Assembly (NCBI RefSeq): GCF_041260155.1
Contig: NC_091930.1
Location: forward strand, 1,406,001 to 1,470,000
Reading direction: 5' to 3'
Length of the DNA stretch: 64,000 nt
From: Ptychodera flava
Lineage: Eukaryota; Hemichordata; Enteropneusta; Ptychoderidae
Part shown: positions 1,899 through 64,000 of the stretch, piece by piece
How the letters are laid out: every line of letters starts with the position of its first letter
Position numbering within the stretch: position 1 is the stretch's first letter
Notes under the pieces: generated by a model
What the model was told of the DNA's origin: nothing
The model's database searches: none
Seen by the model: the letters and a program-made list of their open reading frames with translations, nothing else
Position numbers and translations under genes: made by a program

Positions 1899-35288
<33,390 letters not shown>

Positions 35289-49585: not shown

Positions 49586-51212
49586 TAGCTCCGCTGTCAG
49601 CGACGCGGAGCTTATCAAATAGGTTGATTTTCCATCGTCGTCCGTCGTCGTCCGTCCAACAATTGCCTTCTCCTCGGATACCGCAAGTCCAATTGCTTTG
49701 AAATTTCATATGCAGTTCACTTGGGGTGACCTCACTTAAGTTTGTTCAAATTGTGGTGAAATTGGCATATTGTATTTTGGGGGCATTTTTTGGTGTTTTT
49801 GGTAAAAAAATCTTCTTCTCTGAAACCGCTTGTCGATTGCTTTAAAATTTAATATGCAGTTTACTTAGGGTGACTTCAGTCAGATTTTTTTCAAATCGTA
49901 GTGAAATTTGCATATTTGTATTTTAAAGGCAATTTTTGTCATTTTTGGTAAAAAAATCTTTAAAAATCGTCTTCTTCAAAACTACCAGTCAGATAGCTTT
50001 GATATTTGGTACATATGTCCCTAAGGATGATCTATTTCAGATTTGTTCAAATTGTGCAGAAATATGCAAATTTGCATTTTTAAGGCAATTTTTGCCATTT
50101 TTGGTCAAAAAATGTATTTCTCAAAAGGACTGGTCTGATATTTTTAAATTAATTGGTATACAGGTTTCTATAGATGAACTTAGTAATATATATTGAATTT
50201 CTGATGAAATCTGTAATTTTGTATTTTGGGGCAATTTTTGCCATTTTTGGTCAAAAAATGTGTATTTCCAAAACTACTCATCTGATAGCTTTGAAATTTG
50301 GTATACAGGTTTCTACAGATGAACTTAATGATATTTATTGAAATTATGATGAAATCTGCAATTTTGTATTTTCGGGGCAGTTTTTTGCCATTTTTGGTCA
50401 AAAAATGTGTATTTCCAAAACTACTCATCTGATAGCTTTGCAATTTGGTATACAGGTTCTTACAGATCACCTTAATGATATTTATTGAAATTATGATGAA
50501 ATCTGCAATTTTGTAATTTTGGGGCAATTTTTGCCATTTTTGGTCAAAAATTGTGTTTCTCAAAAAGTACTGGTCTAATAGCTTTGAAATTTGGTATACT
50601 GGTTTCTACAGATGAGCTAAGTAATATATATTCAATTTCTGATGAAATCTGTAGTTTTGTATTTTTGGGGCAATTTTTGCCATTTTTGGTCAAAAAATGT
50701 GTATTTCCAAAACTACTCATCTGATAGCTTTGAAATTTGGTATACAGGTTTCTATAGATAAACTAAATGATATTTATTGAAATAATGATGAAATCTGCAA
50801 TTTTGAATTTTTGGGGCAATTTTTTCCCATTTTTGGTCAAAAAATGTGTTTCTCAAAAAGTACTGTCTAACAGCTTTGAAATTTGGTATACAGGTTTCTA
50901 TAGATGAACTAAATTTGATCTTTTGAAATTATGATGAAATCTGCAATTTTTATTTTTTGGGGCAACTGTTGCCATTTTGGTCATAAAATTTTATTCTCAA
51001 CAAAACTACTCATCAGATAGCTTTGGTTGACATGTTCTTAGGGATGATCCGATGTGATATATTCAAAGTATGATGAAATCTTCAATTGTGTATTTTTGCA
51101 GCTTATTTTAGCCACTTTTTTCTGGCCACTGCATTGAGCTATCAAAGATTTCCACCTTCTTCATCAACATGTTTCAAAAATAGTTATTCTCTACATAAAC
51201 ACAGCGGAGCTA
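49586..51212. mobile_element. TIR element filled with ~147-bp tandem repeats
   Basis: The ends TAGCTCCGCTGT (49586-49597) and ACAGCGGAGCTA (51201-51212) are perfect inverted repeats. Inside, about nine units are marked by CCATTTTTGGTCAAAAAATG and GCTTTGAAATTTGGTATACA at 144-159-bp spacing. The subterminal GTCAGCGACGCGGAGCT can form a hairpin with the left end. There is no coding sequence. From 51213 to 52825 I see no supported feature. Confidence 0.8.
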
Positions 51213-52967: not shown

Positions 52968-53174
52968 ACCCGCTATGTCGGATTAAAATGTTCAAAAGTA
53001 ACAATACTGGGAAATCGTGGTGTCTATAATTAATCAGTTATTACAAAATACTGGCCCATGTCAAGAATTTCGACTGTATTATAAGAGAAATGACTTTTTT
53101 GGGCATTTACGATTGCATGGACTTATTTCATGGACGATTTACATCATCATGTCACACTTACCTTGCTTATACGT

Positions 53175-53370
53175 TGTATTTCATGTTGCTGTCCTTGAGG
53201 GTCAATATGTTATTGTGAGAGTTCCGTGCTTTTCCTGTGTTTCGATGTTTTGAAAGTGTATTTGTGATATGTATAATCTTGTTTTGAAAGCTGAGTCCCT
53301 GAGTCCGATATAGTACTTTGTATTTTGCTTGTATTTACGGTGGCTTTGTATACTACTGAGGGCGTGAGAC
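53175..53370 (-). mobile_element. Penelope-like GIY-YIG fragment (minus strand)
   Basis: The minus strand reads SVVYKATVNT and YTYHKYTFKTSKHRKSTEL in split frames. This matches the plus-strand copy near 56630-56790. The fragment is truncated and frameshifted. Confidence 0.7.
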
Positions 53371-54125
53371 ATTTCCTTGGCCAGTCTATCACCTTCAGCA
53401 TATGACTGAATACCCATGCAGCATGATGCTATGAGTGCCTTTCTGTCAAAAAATTAGTTACTTCTAAACCAATCGTTTAATATATAGGAGCATATCGAGT
53501 TCAAATCAGGTTCCGATTAGATATGTTCTGATTCATTACAGTGAGGTCCACACAAAGACAACAAGGGAAGCATCCTCGTAATGGCAGAAAATATACCAAG
53601 TGGGGATGAACAAAATCCCACTGACCAAAATGTTAAGGGAAATGGCAGCGTACCAGTGACAGTGTTGACAGTGATGGTGAAACTTGTCAAAAGTCACAGG
53701 TAAGTTACGTTGTTGATTTAACGCATTATTTCTAAGCCTTGCGACAGAGGCACATCGACAATTAACATGAATAACCTATGCCTATTTAGCAACACATCGT
53801 GTTTAATGTGTGAAAACAAAACCACAATAACGCTAATATAGTTGTTCATCATCAAAATGAAAACCATAGTATTGCATACAACAGCAAATGCCCAGTATTG
53901 TATTATTTGTCTTGATGAACACTTCTCATCACTCTAGGCTGTATGTGTATATATTAACACAAAATACTTCCATTATACCTGTTACTTAATTTTCATGCAT
54001 CCAGCAATATTTAGATGAATGAAACATACGTAACCTACTGAGTACACTAACATAAAAACATATACATACATATGTATATACACATATATAAACATAAAAA
54101 CATATACATACATATGTATGTATGT

Positions 54126-54146
54126 ACACACACACACACACACACA
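54126..54146. repeat. (CA)n microsatellite
   Basis: A short CA run next to several ACATATGTATGT repeats. Confidence 0.9.
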
Positions 54147-54164
54147 TAGAGTGTGTACATATAG

Positions 54165-54292
54165 TACTGGAGTCTCGAACTCACCGTCCTCCGACAGTGA
54201 GTCCGTTACTTTATCTACCGGGTCTTGAACCGATTCTCGAACTCACTACTCTCTGACAGTGAGTCCGTTACCATAACCACTGGGCCACGGTG
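54165..54292 (-). mobile_element. tRNA-derived SINE head, minus strand
   Basis: On the minus strand TGGCCCAGTGG fits the pol III A box and GAGTTCGAGAATC fits a B box. A second GAGTTCGAGACTC lies in a tandem copy. It sits next to the Penelope fragment at 54300. Confidence 0.6.
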
Positions 54293-54299
54293 CCTCTAT

Positions 54300-56225
54300 T
54301 CGAAAGAAATTCTGTACGTTTGTTTAGCAGTGTTGGCTTGTCTGAGTTGATAATGTGAAATTTGTCCGCGATGCAGAGGTTAGGGAGCATTCGTTTTTTA
54401 CAGGGAGAGCGGGGGGGGGGGGCGGTGGAAATCAGGGGGGTGACTTTTACAAAACCGTTTTTAGGGGGGTCAAATTTTACAATCAATGATTGAAGGGGGG
54501 TCAAATTTTACAAAGGTTTGTATGGAGTTATGGAAAAAAAATTGACTTTGGAATTTCACCGAAATGTTGCTTGTGTAACCGATGTTTCGAGACGGCAGAA
54601 TGATAACCGACCAAAGCTCAGCCAAATTTATTTCTGTAGCAGAGCCAACAAGTACGATACTGGCGGTAACCTCTCTAGAGCAGCAACAGAGCATGTGGCC
54701 CTGAGTACAGGTCTGTGTGTTCCCGGCGTTATACGGCCTCCATCACAGCCTGCAACGGTCTATGGAGATAACAGGGGACTCTCTCTGCAGCGAGATTCAA
54801 AATGGCAATCTCCATGGGTAAACAACTTGTCGAGTATGTTGTTTCAGAAAACGAGCGGTTTTGGACGTTAGGAAAAGTTAATCGCATCATCTCTGGGTCG
54901 GTTAGGAGGTAAAGGTAGGCAGAGAAAGGATTTTGTCCCGATAGAGCAGAATTTCGCCCAAAAGACCTTTTCTTCATTGCGATCCGATCCAGGCCGCAGA
55001 GACCTCAATTCTGTTCAAGGATTCGTTGGTGTTGGAGGCTATATAAAGCAGGGAGCACACAGACCTGTACGCGGGGCTGCAGAGCATGGGGCATGAAATG
55101 AGGAACTACCACACAGTCATATAATGTAACAAACAACTTCCCTGTATTATTATATTGTGTCAAATTATCGGCGTTTACATACAAAATAGTAACACCGTAC
55201 TTCAAAACTACAAATATACATATACATTCCATACATAGTCTATGAGAAGCTATGAATAATTTCTTTTAAATACAAAACTAGCTAAATCTGTGTATTTATA
55301 GACTCTTGATTATTGATATTAATGTACTTGATCAGACTAGGGTAGTTACCGGTGCATGTGTGAGCAAGAAATTTGATTTTGGAATTTCACCGAAATGTTG
55401 ATTCACTATCTTGTCAATGAGGAAACTATGAATAATTTTTTTCCAATACAAAACTAGTTAAATCTGTGTATTTATGTACGCTTGATTATTGATATTAGTG
55501 TACTTGATTAGACTAGGGCGATTACAAGTTCATGTGTGTGCAAAAAATTGATTTTGGAATTTCACCAAAAATGTTGATTCTCAATACATTGTGGTATGTG
55601 AGGAAACTGAATATTTTTTTTACAATACAAAACTGGCTATTAAAATCTGTGCATTGACAATTTGATGTAAATATACGTGACAAGAATATCATTTTTGAAA
55701 GAGCAGATCTGAAAAAACCAATATGATATTGCAATTTCACCCAGTGATTATTTGAAAACTTCAAAAAGGATTCTTTGAAAGTTCAAAGGTCAAATGGGAA
55801 ATTATAAGTCAATTAAGATATCATTGATACAGACTGTGACATCTGGGGAGAGTCACTGTTTTTTGTGCATGAAAATTGGGGTAGGTAACTCTTTTGTTTG
55901 TTTTTTTGCAAACACTTTGAAGGGCCTAATTTTTCAGCCCAGGGACATAGGGTGCGAAGGGTTAATTTTAATCAAATCTGATATTTTTTTAAGGGGGTCA
56001 CATTATAAAATTGATGAATTTAGGAGGGGGTCGAATTTTAGAAATTTGATTTGGAGGGGTCGCTTTTAACATTTCATTGTCGCTCAAATTCCACCGACCC
56101 TCCCCTCCCCGTAAAAAACGAATGCTTCCTTACAACGTTTTGTCTTGGTTGAGTAAGGCTTGGCTCCGTCAATAATAGACAATGTGACGTTGTATTTTAT
56201 GTTGCTGTCTGGTTGGGCGGCCTTT
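54300..56225 (-). mobile_element. Penelope-like 3' fragment split by a nested transposon
   Basis: Minus-strand coding pieces at 56144-56225 (block equivalent to DSNIKYNV) and at 54300-54377 (KFHIINSDKPTLLNKRTEFL) would be contiguous if the insert at 54383-56129 were absent. The same order is intact in the plus-strand copy at 56800-56980. Confidence 0.75.
54383..56129. mobile_element. 1,747-bp TIR transposon with TTA target duplication
   Basis: The ends GGGAGCATTCGTTTTTTAC and GTAAAAAACGAATGCTTCC are inverted, flanked by TTA on both sides (54380-54382, 56130-56132). The interior has ~173-bp tandem repeats (55250-55640) marked by GATTTTGGAATTTCACC, and GGGGTCAAATTTTA tracts near the ends. I see no transposase, so it looks non-autonomous. 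TIR plus a TWA-type target duplication suggests a Harbinger-like family (inference). Confidence 0.8.
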
Positions 56226-56262
56226 TTGAATGAAGTTACATTCAAAAAGGCCACCCCTGAAT
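56215..56262. repeat. Hairpin between opposed Penelope copies
   Basis: GGCCTTTTTGAATG and CATTCAAAAAGGCC are perfect inverted arms around AAGTTA. It lies exactly at the join of the minus-strand and plus-strand Penelope fragments. Confidence 0.8.
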
Positions 56263-57020
56263 ACGAACATCACTGAAGAGGAGTGGCCATCAGCACAAGA
56301 TGAATTAACCAACCACCGACCAGCAGCGCCCCATAAAGATCACGAAGCAGGCAGATAATTTGGTATAACCCACCATTCAACAAAGCAGTAAAAACCAACA
56401 TTGGCAGAAGATTCCTCAACCTCATTAAATTACACTTCCCTCAAGGACATCCATTACACAAGATCTTCAATAAAAACAATGTGAAAGTCAGCTACAGCTG
56501 TACAAGAAATATGGGCAGTATCATGAGAGTCCATAACAACCACCTTCTACACAACGACAACAAACCAACTAAGTCATGTAACTGCCGCAAAAAAAGAAGA
56601 TTGCCCTATTATACGGAAACTGTCTCAACGCCCTCAGTAGTATACAAAGCCACCGTAAATACAAGCAATAATACAAAGCACTATATCGGACTCACTGACT
56701 CAGCTTTCAAAACAAGATATACATATCACAAATACACTTTCAAAACATCAAAACACAGGAAAAGCACGGAACTCTCAAAATACACTGAATACATATAGAC
56801 CCTCAAGGACAGCAACATAAAATACAACGTCCACATGGTCTATCATTTAACAGAGCCCAGCCTTACTCAACCAAAACAAAACGTTGTAACCTCTGCATCA
56901 CCGAGAAATTTCACATTATCAACTCAGACAAGTCAACACTGCTAAACAAACGTACAGAATTTCTTTCGAAATGTACACAAAGAAGCAACTTCCTTCTCAT
57001 TAACACTTGAACGCGCCAGA
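56263..57020 (+). mobile_element. Penelope-like element 3' part with GIY-YIG domain
   Basis: The plus-strand reading gives RRFLNLIKLHFPQGHPLHKI, KVSYSCTRNMGSIM, KSCNCR, SVVYKATV and HYIGLTDSAFKTRYTYHKYT, then the NFTLSTQTSQHC-region tail. This order matches the region between RT and GIY-YIG endonuclease in Penelope-like elements. Stops and shifts mark it as dead. The RT itself is absent. Confidence 0.75.
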
Positions 57021-57189
57021 ACAACCGCCTCGTTTGCATATACCCCTGGCCCTGTATATAGGTAGCAACGAGCCCGCCAACATCACTCCTGACGATTGCC
57101 AAAGAGCATGATACAGTCTATAGAGTTACAGCTGGGCGATCTTTACGTTTTAGTTGTTGTTTTGCCGATATAAAACATCGTCCAGCTGT

Positions 57190-57597
57190 ATTTAATTGCC
57201 GGAACAAATCTCAAATCTTCATGTACGTTGAAAGTTACGGTCAAGCCAGGAGTGTCATTTACAAGGCCAATGATTCAACAGAAGTCAATAAGGTCTCACC
57301 GCTAACACCTTGAAGACAAGCTTCGCTGATCACATGCGGTCGTTCCGTAAGGAAAAGAATGAGAACAGCAGTGAACTATCAAAGTTTGTTTGGTCCCTCA
57401 AAGTACAAGTAAAAGGACAAGGACTTTGTTGAATCATGGTCAGTTACCGACAGAGCATTAGGTTTCTCTAACATAAAGCAAGCGGTTTAATCTTTCTGTC
57501 TTTGTTGTTTGTCTACGCTTAATCAATGCTGACAAATCTACGCTGTTCAACAAGCGCTCTGAGGTGGTCTCAAAATGTCGTCATCAAAACAAATATT
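57190..57597 (+). mobile_element. Second Penelope-like GIY-YIG fragment
   Basis: Pieces in several frames read SVIYKAND, TSFADHMRSFRKEKNENSSE, LSKFVWSLK and NADKSTLFNKRSEVVS. This family is different from the copy just upstream. It stops at the TA microsatellite before exon 2 of the pseudogene. Confidence 0.65.
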
Positions 57598-57600
57598 AAA

Positions 57601-57686
<86 letters not shown>

Positions 57687-57687
57687 T
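57598..57687. repeat. (TA)n microsatellite
   Basis: About 90 bases of TA that end 54 bases before exon 2 of the GT4-like pseudogene. Confidence 0.96.
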
Positions 57688-57740
57688 CGCTTTTCGTATT
57701 ATAAGTATCATATTTATTAAGCATTACCATAACCTTACAG

Positions 57741-59031
57741 GGAATGGAGGGAAAGCAAGTACTGCCACCTGCAACTCTGATCGTAATCGAAAGATGGGGT
57801 TTTCCGATCCTTGGAGGAATTCCAGCAGCCTTGTATTTGCTCATAAATCTACTAAAATCGATAAGATTGACAATATATTGCACCGTACTCGAAGCTGATG
57901 GATACACTGATAGTGAAGCAAAACGTTTGGGCGTACACCTTCTAAAACCAAAACTAAAGCCCTACTATAGATCAATAAAACCAACGCCAATTTGGCTCGA
58001 GACGTACACAGCTTTCTATCCACATTTAGAAAAGTTGCAAAATGTGAAGTTCATCTTCGGTTTTGGATTAGTAACATCATCAGTTGCATTTGATATAAGG
58101 GACAGCATATTTCCCGAGGCTAAATTTGGAGTAGTCAATGTTTGGTGTCCGGACTTCATCACCAAAGAAACTTTAAATTATGATCAACGGACATTTCAAA
58201 ATCGTTGTATACTTCTTGACCAAGAAAACCAGTGTGCCGAGATAATTCTTTCAATAGGACCTTCAGTGTTTGACCACTTTAAATTCAGGTATAGAAATAT
58301 CAAGTTAAAACATTATCAGTTAATGCCAAGATCCTTTAAAGAATATTTTGATGTACCCTTACTTACAGTTGACCAATTACCAGACGAAATTCGACATTTT
58401 GAAATTCTGTCGATGTTTGAAAACTTATTGATGAATTTTCGCCGACTAATGTCCTACAAAAAGCAATGAATCTGATGGCGAGTTCATATGAAAAAAATAT
58501 GAAAGATCCTCCAAAATGGACAATTCTCTGCACAGAAAAAACAAGTGATATAACAATCACATCGCGTTTAAAGCCACGGTCCAACCTGAATGTATACGTT
58601 AAAAGACTGAAGTCTACTGATTATATTACAGAACTGCGTTTTTCACACATTTTTATTGTGCCCATGCGCTCAGTCGACATGTTCAGTTTAAACAATCGCC
58701 GCCATGGCTAGCGGAAACCAGTGATCGTTCCTGCGATGTCAGAATGTGACATGTTTATTCGAAAATACTTACCTTTGTACCGAGATAATATGGTCGTGGA
58801 CATGCGATGCGGTCCAAACAATTACGCGATAGGATCGTACATATCCTGCAAAACTACAGTGTGTACATGAAGCAAGCAGGGAGGTCAGGCGTGTCCTGCA
58901 GGAAGACCTCGCGAAGAAAATCGAGGAAATGAATAGTATGCTGGTAGATGAAGTTAATATACATGTGCAACTCTCAAGAACACCACAAGTGGCAACCTCA
59001 ATTTCCAGTAGTGATGCTACACTGGATTACG
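57741..59031 (+). pseudogene. Exon 2 of the broken gene: GT-B (GT4-like) glycosyltransferase domain
   Basis: The frame open from 57744 to 58469 encodes the N-terminal Rossmann half. Landmarks are ERWGFPILGG (the sugar-acceptor-side glycine loop region), IYCTVLEADGYTDSEAKR, FPEAKFGVVNVWCPDF and AEIILSIGPSVFDHF. The C-terminal half continues in another frame (DPPKWTIL, FSHIFIVPMRS, then RKPVIVP). These match the order seen in GT4-like proteins of invertebrates. A TAG sits where the family's glycine-rich nucleotide-sugar segment should be, just before KPVIVP. After a further shift, a helical tail (VRRVLQEDLAKKIEEM) leads to the donor at 59032. Activity as it stands is very unlikely. Confidence 0.75.
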
Positions 59032-59623
59032 GTAAGACTGTAAATTCCTTTACATATATTAGAAGACGCGGTCGTGCATTTGACTCAAGCGACAATTTCA
59101 TTATTTCATGCAACATGCATTCCTCGTTTATGTTATGACAATGTTTACGTTTTCGTTCGTCATTAGCAAGTGAATAAAATCTATAATTTTATTTTCAAAT
59201 TACCTCCCAGTATCACAATACAAGCTACTTTGCATTGTGCTTTTGTAACAAAATGCTATCATCTTTCTTATTGATATTGGTTCATCAGCCTCATCTACAT
59301 CACTGGACATCCACACAGAGAATGAACAACGCAATCTGGGTAAGCAGCTTTAGCAGTTACGACTGGTGACAGCATTGTTTATCATTGAATTGTACAAGTT
59401 GATTTTTTAAAAATAACGTTGGCATGAAAGTATAAATGAAGGTTGCATCCCATGAGATTAAGATTAATTTGTACTATGGGGAATTCTAAACTGTAATTAC
59501 ATCTATGTGTTTTCTTTCTTCCTGTATGTATTCAGTCAGCAACATGGTCTATACAAAATGCAACAAAATTATTTTAGTAAGACAAATGATATTTTTCTTA
59601 TGCATTCCCTGTGTTCCCTTCAG

Positions 59624-59998
59624 CTACAGTGAGCTTGCAGATCAGCCCTTCATATGGAAACTCTGTAAACGGTGAGTCTATGTCTCACGTGGAAGGCTCG
59701 TTTTACCAAGAGCATCAACCCGAACAAATATGTCAACTGATTAGTGGTGTTCACGATGATCTCGATGTCCTGACAGTAGAAAAGGGTTGTCTTCAGTATG
59801 TGATGAATTGTGGATCATTAGAAGCGCTGGAAGCTCTTTGGAATGAGTATACCAGTGGACGACTGGACGAAACCATCCATGCTACAATCATCACACCAAC
59901 ACTACTCAGCAAGATTCAAGCTCACTACCTAACCCTCGATATCTACATTCCAGTACAGGAGTATTTACTCTGTAAGAGGGAACTGCCACTGATCTCAG
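59624..59998 (+). pseudogene. Exon 4 of the broken gene: TRADD-like N-terminal domain
   Basis: The exon is intact: 375 nt, phase 1 in and out, between CCCTTCAG and GTGATT. The conserved block reads VEKGCLQYVMNCGSLEALEA, then LWNEYTSGRLDE and VQEYLLCKREL. This pattern (xxGSLxxxLxCxSLxALExLWxxYxSGxLxx... LxCK) is what I recall for TRADD-N-like domains in cnidarian, lancelet and hemichordate immune-type proteins. The role would be adaptor-type protein interaction. The assignment is from memory and has not been searched. The short upstream exon 3 (59289-59339, 17 codons, phase 1-1) and the start of exon 4 look like serine-rich linker modules. Confidence 0.65.
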
Positions 59999-60533
59999 GT
60001 GATTTAAACCCAATTCTTCGTTATCTGCTTTTTGACTTAAAAAAGAAAGTTCATCGTGTCTTTTTTGTATTTATGACGGGTGGTCCTACTTGTAACAGTA
60101 GTAAAAGTTTATTTCAGCTGACAAAGATATATGGTACACGCAAGATGTCACATAACTGTTAACCAAAAATCACAATAATGCACTTGTTAGCAGTAGGCAT
60201 CTGTAAAGAGATAAGTGATTTGAAAATCCGCTGCTGTAAAATCATACATGACATTATAAAGTTAACAAGGTTTTTGACTTGGATGACTATCAGGGGTTTA
60301 ACCTTACCAAATTGCTGGGGAGAACCTAGCTTAGCTAGGATTTGGATTTTAAAATATTGACAGTTGGAAAATTGCAGGGGTGGTTCCCCTCCCCGCAGAC
60401 AACGGCCTTTACTATGCTACTATAATTGAATTAAATTAAAGAAAGTTCTGATTATTTTGTATCAAATTACAATTACACTTTCCGGTGTACACAGGTTTCA
60501 TTGATTGCTGACAACATTTTTCTTTTTCCGCAG

Positions 60534-61017
60534 GTTCTGTGACGATGCCATCTCGTCGTCACAGTGTTGGTGCAACAACTGAACCGAGAGCTGTTCCATG
60601 TCACCGTGCAGAACTAAACGGTACAGTGGACACTCTAAATCTGATTCTGTCACATCCCCAGATGCAAATACAAGACGGTAACGCCCACTCCACATTGTTC
60701 AGTCGAGATGACTTCCATGTCGAAGAATTGCATCACTACAAAACAAGTTTACGAAAACACATGGCAAAGTAACAACTGACGTCTATGTCCAAGAAGCAAG
60801 GCTCGGAGCATACCAGACCAAAATGGACGCACTTGTCAGGGATTTCACTGCTAATCAACACATATCGGGCAGATGGAGAATGCTACGGAATCTGACTTCA
60901 TCGAGTTAAAGATAGGGACCACTAACTGCAGCCGTCAGAAGATGGTGGAATTGCGTGAGGATAACGAAGTGTTGACTTTGTACAAGTTGAAGGGTGAGCT
61001 AGGACGCGTCACTGAAG
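60534..61017 (+). pseudogene. Exon 5 of the broken gene: conserved downstream region with two shifts
   Basis: The acceptor is TTTTTCCGCAG and the donor GTAAGT. Three successive frames read as protein: MPSRRHSVGATTEPRAVPCH to FSRDDFHVEELHH, then VTTDVYVQEARLGAYQTKMD, then NATESDFIELKIGTTNCSRQ to LGRVTEG. I do not recognise a named domain, but the composition and phase closure indicate one coding exon with two single-base losses. No later exon was found before the window ends. Confidence 0.6.
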
Positions 61018-64000
61018 GTAAGTAAAGCTTTTATGAAGAGAAACAATACTCGTTAGGGGTGGACCATTTGATGATATCCGGGCGGGGGAGTTGGCAGATT
61101 TGAGGGGGGAGGGAATCCGAGAGGTTGCCTTTTATAAATCCACAATGTCGATGTGCCATATGCAGCGCACCCTTTGTTCATGACAATGCCATAACATATG
61201 AAATGACTACATTTCATTTAAAGCGTCCTGATTGACTAGTATTCTAACTGACACTTTCGCTGTTGTTTTACGTGAACCAAGTATTTCAATCTGCAGCATT
61301 AAGGCGCATCATTCATTTTGTGCATATGCTGCAGTTTCTGATCCTTACACCTGAAAATATCTTGACTACTCAATTCAGCTTGTTCACATAGCCTGCATTG
61401 GATATCCTGTGTCCATTGCTGTTCACTACAATGATGTGCTGGGCTTATCATAACTTGTGAACCAATGTATTTGTGGTACATAAAGGGGTTCCCGCAGTCA
61501 CCCCGATATGTAATGTTTCTTTAACTACTCTTTTCTAATTTCTAACAACTTTACGACCAACAATAGCAATTTAATATGGCGAGGGTTAGACAAGGGTACT
61601 AGAATTTGACAGAAATAGATCTAATAGACTTATAAATGTCCTAATAATAACTTATGATTTTGTTTGTCGCTCAAAGCATGTTATCGGATACACCTGTTAA
61701 TATCCAAATAGATGCTGCATTCGAAAATGAATAGCGATACCCTGAATTTGAACCAATGTATCATAAACTTTTGAAACAGAAATACTAAGCACTTCTGTAG
61801 CATGTACATATACTGAAGCTGCGCTTTGATTTGTTTTTGTATTAAATTGCATTTCTTTGCATTAATTGTGAAAAAAATATATTTACCTATTTGGATATTC
61901 ACTTGTCTCTGCTGACATGGCAATGATTGGAATTAAGTACATTTTCGATCAGATTCGGAAATCATTTTGTGTCTTATGTATTTTGAGTCTTCATGAAAAC
62001 TATGTTTAAAACACTCAAAATGGCAACAAGATAACTCCCTTTTACTATGTAAAATTCAAAATTTCTGTATCAGAAGGAAAACACCCAAAAAATCCACTAA
62101 TTGGATTAATTGTGTCATTTCAGTATTCAACTACCTCTATGCATTTGCAGTCTTTCAAATCCTTGTGCCGCATGTTTTTAGCCTGCTGCCTAGAACAAAC
62201 TTAATCATAGTGGTAATGGTTTTCTTATAGATTGAAACGTCGATGACTTCTTATTTGCCTCCATAAGTAATTTTGCTGTAGTAAAGAATTCTTGTATTTT
62301 CTTTCCAACTTCCAGACATTCTGAAGCAGATGCTGTTTGCCTTTAGTACGATATAAACTTTGTGCTGCTTTACCTTCATTTCCTTATTCAGTTTGGCATG
62401 TGAACAGCAATTACTGGCATTCAGCACACGTATTCGCGCGAAAATATTTCTCTCAAACGGGAAATAAGAATGAAAGAGGCCTGGATATATACAGTAAGAA
62501 ATACAGTTCTTTGTGAAACAGGGAGTAAAAAATAATGTTCCTTAGTCAATCCTTCACCCCCATACAGAATGGTCCACCCCTTAATTAGAAAAGCCTTGTC
62601 AAAACATACCACAAATGTATATATTTTATGACTGATGCGTGTCTAAAAAAGCACATGTTTTGTAAACAGTCTTGTGTATCATTCCTTTAGAGAACATTTT
62701 CATTTTAATCAATTACATTTATTTTTATTGCTTCATATTCACGGTCTTTGATAGCAGAGCCATGTCCAGAGAATGTAACCCTGCCAAATTCCCTCGCACT
62801 GGAACTGTTAAAACTGAACCTCGTATATATAAGACTAAATCACAAATAGTTGTTACACAATCATTCTTCAAAACTTGTGCGTACCACGCATTATTTTTCA
62901 GCGTTTTTTTTTTTTGTAGTCACGTACGTGATAATACATATTCATTTTCCGGCTACGACTCCTTGATTCCAGTTTAACCAAAAAATCTAACGACAACGTC
63001 ACAAATATAAATAAATTCAATAAAAATTTGATGCCAAGATACCAAGTTTCAGTCGATAAGTAGGAGATAGTTTTCCAAAAAGCTTTTGCGAGAGCACTCC
63101 GGATTCGTCTAAATGAGGGTTGAAATCTAAGAAATCGCTGACCCGTAGTGGTGTGTAGAGATTGATGAAGTGATCGCAAACGAAGTTTGTGGGTCTCTAG
63201 GAGCTGGGCAAAAATACGAATTCGAATATCACGTAAGTGGAAGCCTACTGAAATGTTGTCATTTATCCAAGAATTTTGAACGCAATAGGTACCAAGTACA
63301 TTCTCTTTAGGCTGTGTTCACGAACACCTCTTGGCAAAACTCTGAGCTAAAAGATGGGGGGTCTTGAAAAACAGAGAAGCTGAAAGGGAGACTTGAAAAA
63401 TATATAATGGAAGGGCTTTTTTGTGAGAATCACAGTAAGAGGCCAAAGGCGACTAACTAAGACATTTGTTGTAAGAAAATACAAAGTCGCTCAAATTTGA
63501 TCAGAATTGGTATATACCAGTATGGGTTACCAATGATCAACAATAAATGTTGTTTCTATCTGTTCAGTGGAGGAAAATTCTACGTTGATGTTATGACATA
63601 ATTTCTGCACAGTACAACCAGAAAAACGACAAGAAATATTTAAACCAGAAAAACAAGAATGACAAAAGTAATTAAGGTCTAACTTTAGGTACTGGAGGTC
63701 AACTTTAGCAACATACATATCAGAAACAAGCCCCTCTTAGTTTAGTATAAACGGTCTTCCCTATCTACTGTCTATGGTTGCAGCTGGTCAGTTAATATGT
63801 AACAGTTCATAAACAATGACAGGAAATGAGTCAAGATCAGTGGACTTTGCCTGTTTCTCAATGGCATGCCTCTTGCAGGATTTCACTTTTTCTTACCTCA
63901 TTTGCACATTTTTGACACTGATGTGTTCATTTGAACAAATTCACATCTCAACCCCTGCATCTACCTGTACACCAAATACTGAGATGGTAGCTTTGGCGGT
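61018..64000. other. Window end, no supported exon
   Basis: The sequence is AT-rich with short ORFs lacking recognisable domains. G-rich dispersed repeat pieces lie near 61070-61130 and 63350-63420. Later exons of the pseudogene, if any, lie beyond the window. Confidence 0.5.

Follow-up and report, generated by a model that had tools for sequence, protein, structure and literature searches.

Does the genome of the hemichordate Ptychodera flava join a glycosyltransferase domain to an adaptor domain in one gene, and does that gene still make a protein? The question is raised by a locus at 53581..61017 of the window, that is, the whole stretch of DNA that was analysed, 64,000 nucleotides (nt) long (contig NC_091930.1). 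The explanation that best fits the whole, and one considered quite probable, is that the locus is one copy of an animal GT4–TRADD-N gene family; that this copy is decaying is only slightly favored.

Layout of the Locus

The features on which the argument depends are as follows.

53581..53699, + strand: candidate exon 1 of the initial annotation, 119 nt, with an ATG and a GT donor, ending in phase 2
57741..59031, + strand: exon 2, predicted GT4-type glycosyltransferase domain with five frame changes (PF20706 match, splice borders)
58673..58700, + strand: where the GT4 E-x7-E pair would lie (frames compared by eye with 26 bacterial rows)
59289..59339, + strand: exon 3, a linker of 51 nt in phase 1 on both sides (splice borders)
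59624..59998, + strand: exon 4, open, putative TRADD-N-like domain (PF20694 below cut-off, bacterial profile)
about 59776-59874, + strand: TRADD-N-like Pfam core (PF20694), with a Gly-Cys turn at 59788-59793
60534..61017, + strand: exon 5, with two frame changes and a phase 1 GT donor (frames, splice borders)

Exons 2, 3, 4, and 5 have AG/GT borders, and the phases derived from these borders place all three junctions in phase 1. For this part of the locus, the phasing proposed in the initial annotation holds. Exon 1 does not bear out the five phased exons that were claimed, since it ends in phase 2 whereas the open frame of exon 2 starts in phase 0 at the best acceptor, 57741, and a model of five clean phased exons was therefore rejected. 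A phase-compatible AG is present before 57722, but without a good pyrimidine tract as judged by eye. A Pfam search with exon 1 gave no match, and its membership in the gene is doubtful. Exon 5 had no Pfam match above cut-off, either as separate pieces or in a piecewise reading.

The GT4 Domain of Exon 2

In a Pfam profile search, the GT4-conflict family PF20706 matched exon 2 over 57741-58466 with 29.4 bits (E 5.4e-7), above the curated cut-off of 26 bits. When the exon is read piecewise across the frame changes, with an X at each, the score rises to 42.4 bits and the match covers positions 8-375 of the 385 in the profile, or nearly its whole length. Kept in one frame throughout, the exon scores 27.4 bits. 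In five controls, the C-terminal half was either reversed (n = 1) or shuffled (n = 4); these score 27.2-27.9 bits, and their matches end at profile positions 165-167. The C-terminal half alone, read piecewise, has no GT4 match, which counts against the best explanation and means that the homology of this half rests on the gain seen in the joined reading. The GT-B domain predicted for exon 2 is thus confirmed at the level of profile matching as GT4-type. The same family also has matches in all 14 ordinary control genomes, so the match alone is no proof of a role in biological conflict.

The TRADD-N-like Domain of Exon 4

The only Pfam match of exon 4 is to TRADD-like_N (PF20694), with 17.3 and 17.9 bits against a curated cut-off of 23.7 bits. 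A profile built from 10 of 11 bacterial TRADD-like_N loci (the eleventh was left out because its padded stretch contains a stop) scores exon 4 at 12.5 bits, compared to at most 3.3 bits for 500 shuffles; the bacterial members were fetched with PF20694, so this is a second look that is not independent of Pfam. None of the 14 control genomes has a PF20694 match. The turn motif, a strand, and a helix of the bacterial domains align with exon 4, which carries Gly-Cys where the bacterial domains carry Gly-Ser. In the turn between beta2 and beta3, the TRADD-N superfamily, which has an RRM-like fold, is described as carrying a tiny residue and then a Ser that is sometimes replaced by Cys (Kaur et al. 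2021, PMC8195603), and the Gly-Cys of exon 4 falls at this turn.

That exon 4 is something else and matched by chance is a reading to which very little probability is given. It draws on the Pfam score, which lies under the curated cut-off, and on a search of solved structures (PDB, by sequence) that returned no match to exon 4; it has to contend with the bacterial profile, whose alignment covers the same core and the turn motif within it, at a score well apart from those of the shuffles. The empty structure search also counts against the best explanation, as does a search with exon 4 as a single query in five cyanobacterial genomes, in which nothing was found. The TRADD-N match of the initial annotation consequently stands in part: the bacterial profile favors it, but the Pfam score falls short. 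The name TRADD-N-like, and nothing closer, is supported, though more weakly than that of the GT4 domain.

A Probable Single Gene of a Known Animal Family

The domain matches and the phase 1 junctions put GT4 before TRADD-N in one gene. The proteins so built are not new. Kaur et al. (2021, PMC8195603), in their account of the metazoan members, describe proteins of cephalochordates, hemichordates, and cnidarians in which GT4 is followed by TRADD-N and then by leucine-rich repeats. The authors assign these proteins to immunity against invaders, suggest that GT4 modifies invader molecules, and report retrotransposons near the genes. The pairing at the present locus is real, though its TRADD-N match is weak, and the architecture has been in print since that account of 2021 (PMC8195603). 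What the initial annotation said of the gene is therefore upheld in the names and order of the domains, GT4 (exon 2) upstream of the TRADD-N-like domain (exon 4), and is qualified by the disrupted frame, the doubtful exon 1, and an architecture that is already in print. Its placing of such proteins in an invertebrate immune or conflict-type setting agrees with the published description (PMC8195603).

Compared with the metazoan GT4–TRADD-N(–LRR) proteins of the DEDD2-like TRADD-N clade, as they are described in that account (PMC8195603), the locus shares GT4 before TRADD-N and transposon-like sequence nearby. It differs from them, in a comparison made with the published description, in its broken frame and in an Ala at the second Glu of the catalytic pair (PMC8195603). 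The leucine-rich repeats of that description (PMC8195603) were not found up to the end of the window, a point that weighs against the best explanation: six frames of 61018-64000 gave no Pfam match, and the window ends at 64000.

Could two neighboring genes, one with GT4 and one with TRADD-N, have been mistakenly read together? The link between the two domains rests on splice sites and phase, which leaves room for such a misreading. However, three successive phase 1 junctions with AG/GT borders would arise once in 27 by chance, counting phase alone, and the same order is described within one protein in three animal groups (PMC8195603). Two genes are considered very unlikely.

A single gene would run from the GT4-type glycosyltransferase domain through a short linker and the TRADD-N-like adaptor domain to a C-terminal region in which no known domain is recognized. 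The domains, their order, and the phases of exons 2-5 are seen at the locus itself, as is the broken frame. From the literature we infer that intact relatives likely act in intracellular immunity, where the TRADD-N domain, with its RRM-like fold, would dock to partners and the GT4 domain would modify or bind a molecule of the invader; all three of these functions (immunity, docking, and glycosylation) have this literature as their source. The locus adds one copy to a family in which the function of GT4 is a predicted one in the published account (PMC8195603).

The Catalytic Pair of Glutamates

The E-x7-E pair is a motif of GT4 enzymes and lies in their C-terminal domain. Its site in exon 2 was placed with a comparison profile of 26 cyanobacterial proteins fetched with PF20706 (4 of the 30 fetched, longer than 520 aa, were left out); this profile barely sees the protein of the window, at 2.5 bits, and was used only to place the motif. 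The letters around the pair read VPMRSVDMFSL, then TIAAMASG, then KPV, across changing frames. The second Glu position is Ala (58698-58700), and the letters around it are in the same frame as AMASG. At the first position stands Val if the frame change loses no residue and Asp if one is lost; the cyanobacterial profile aligned the Asp, not the Val, to the first Glu. In the 26 bacterial rows, counted by eye, the second position is always Glu; 25 rows also have Glu at the first position, and the remaining one has Asp. With Ala at the second position and Val or Asp at the first, the domain is not called an active GT4 enzyme.

This loss of a catalytic glutamate is the sole point that may go beyond the published account of the family (PMC8195603), and it would be meaningful only alongside intact animal relatives. 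If such relatives also were without the glutamate, the idea of GT4 domains adding sugars to invader molecules would need revision. A more speculative reading, and a rather improbable one, is that in this animal lineage the GT4 half dropped catalysis and became a sensor that binds sugar or nucleotide-sugar and is wired to the TRADD-N adaptor; the gene would then be alive, and the breaks in its frame would be errors of the sequence.

Pseudogene or Sequence Errors

Seven frame changes fall within about 2.2 kb, five of them in exon 2 (across three frames) and two in exon 5, and as a result, no continuous protein can be read; the initial annotation had not noted these changes. Either the locus is a pseudogene, or the sequence of a gene contains local errors. 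Upstream on the same strand lies a gene for a TRPM-type ion channel (2749-26625, + strand), with eight open exons matched to structures of TRPM1-5, 7, and 8. These exons, 1505 nt in all, serve as a control for frame quality, with some cautions: they were found through matches to solved structures, so a badly broken exon may have been missed; two of the eight come from weak matches (i-Evalue 0.91 and 0.045); and the borders were set by eye, some a base or two off.

A serious alternative, given a little under an even chance, is an intact, expressed GT4–TRADD-N gene in which errors in the assembly sequence alone account for the broken frame. Six of the seven frame changes share one sign; the remaining one is of opposite sign, or else stands for two more of the shared sign. 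Between the changes, the pieces of open frame (2166 nt, with a few bases trimmed at every change) contain no stop, which counts against a pseudogene. In a pseudogene, the chance of zero stops would be 0.48 if each frame-shifting indel is assumed to be accompanied by 3 substitutions, falling to 0.05 if it is accompanied by 12. Five of the seven changes also lie within a 12-nt stretch that has a run of at least three, where 42% would be expected; the stretches were placed by eye and the excess is weak, so homopolymer errors are not supported as a clear cause. Against sequence errors stand the TRPM exons, which remain open in the same window: if errors were uniform, the chance that all seven changes miss their 1505 nt is 0.025. 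Taken together, the evidence leans slightly toward a decaying copy over local errors in an intact gene.

Searches for Relatives

Relatives of the locus were sought both inside and outside the window. Plasmid records yielded nothing at E values of 1 or less. A peptide pattern picked up 54 stretches in genome contigs and 5 in viral contigs, and tblastn confirmed none of them. A search of phages returned 46 records, the best with E of about 2, and these were taken as noise. A PDB search by sequence with exon 2 returned one match (E 0.65), which is unrelated. Within the window, tblastn queries with exons 1 and 4, two parts of exon 2, and the opening part of exon 5 found no second copy of any of them at E up to 1.

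Surroundings of the Locus

The window has long introns and microsatellites. In intron 1, an open frame at 56337-56798 (+ strand) looks by eye like a fragment of a retroelement, and we take it to resemble the end of a Penelope-type retroelement; a Pfam search with this frame gave no match. An inverted copy, whose protein is about 69% similar to that of the intron frame, lies upstream of exon 1 at 53171-53365 (− strand). Across the roughly 24 kb of 29801-53601, six frames gave no Pfam match above cut-off and three weak ones below it, and tRNA and Rfam scans over the whole window were empty. Two tandem arrays are also present, one at 19594-20479 with 4 copies of a 224-nt unit and the other at 49976-51025 with about 7 copies of a 146-nt unit.
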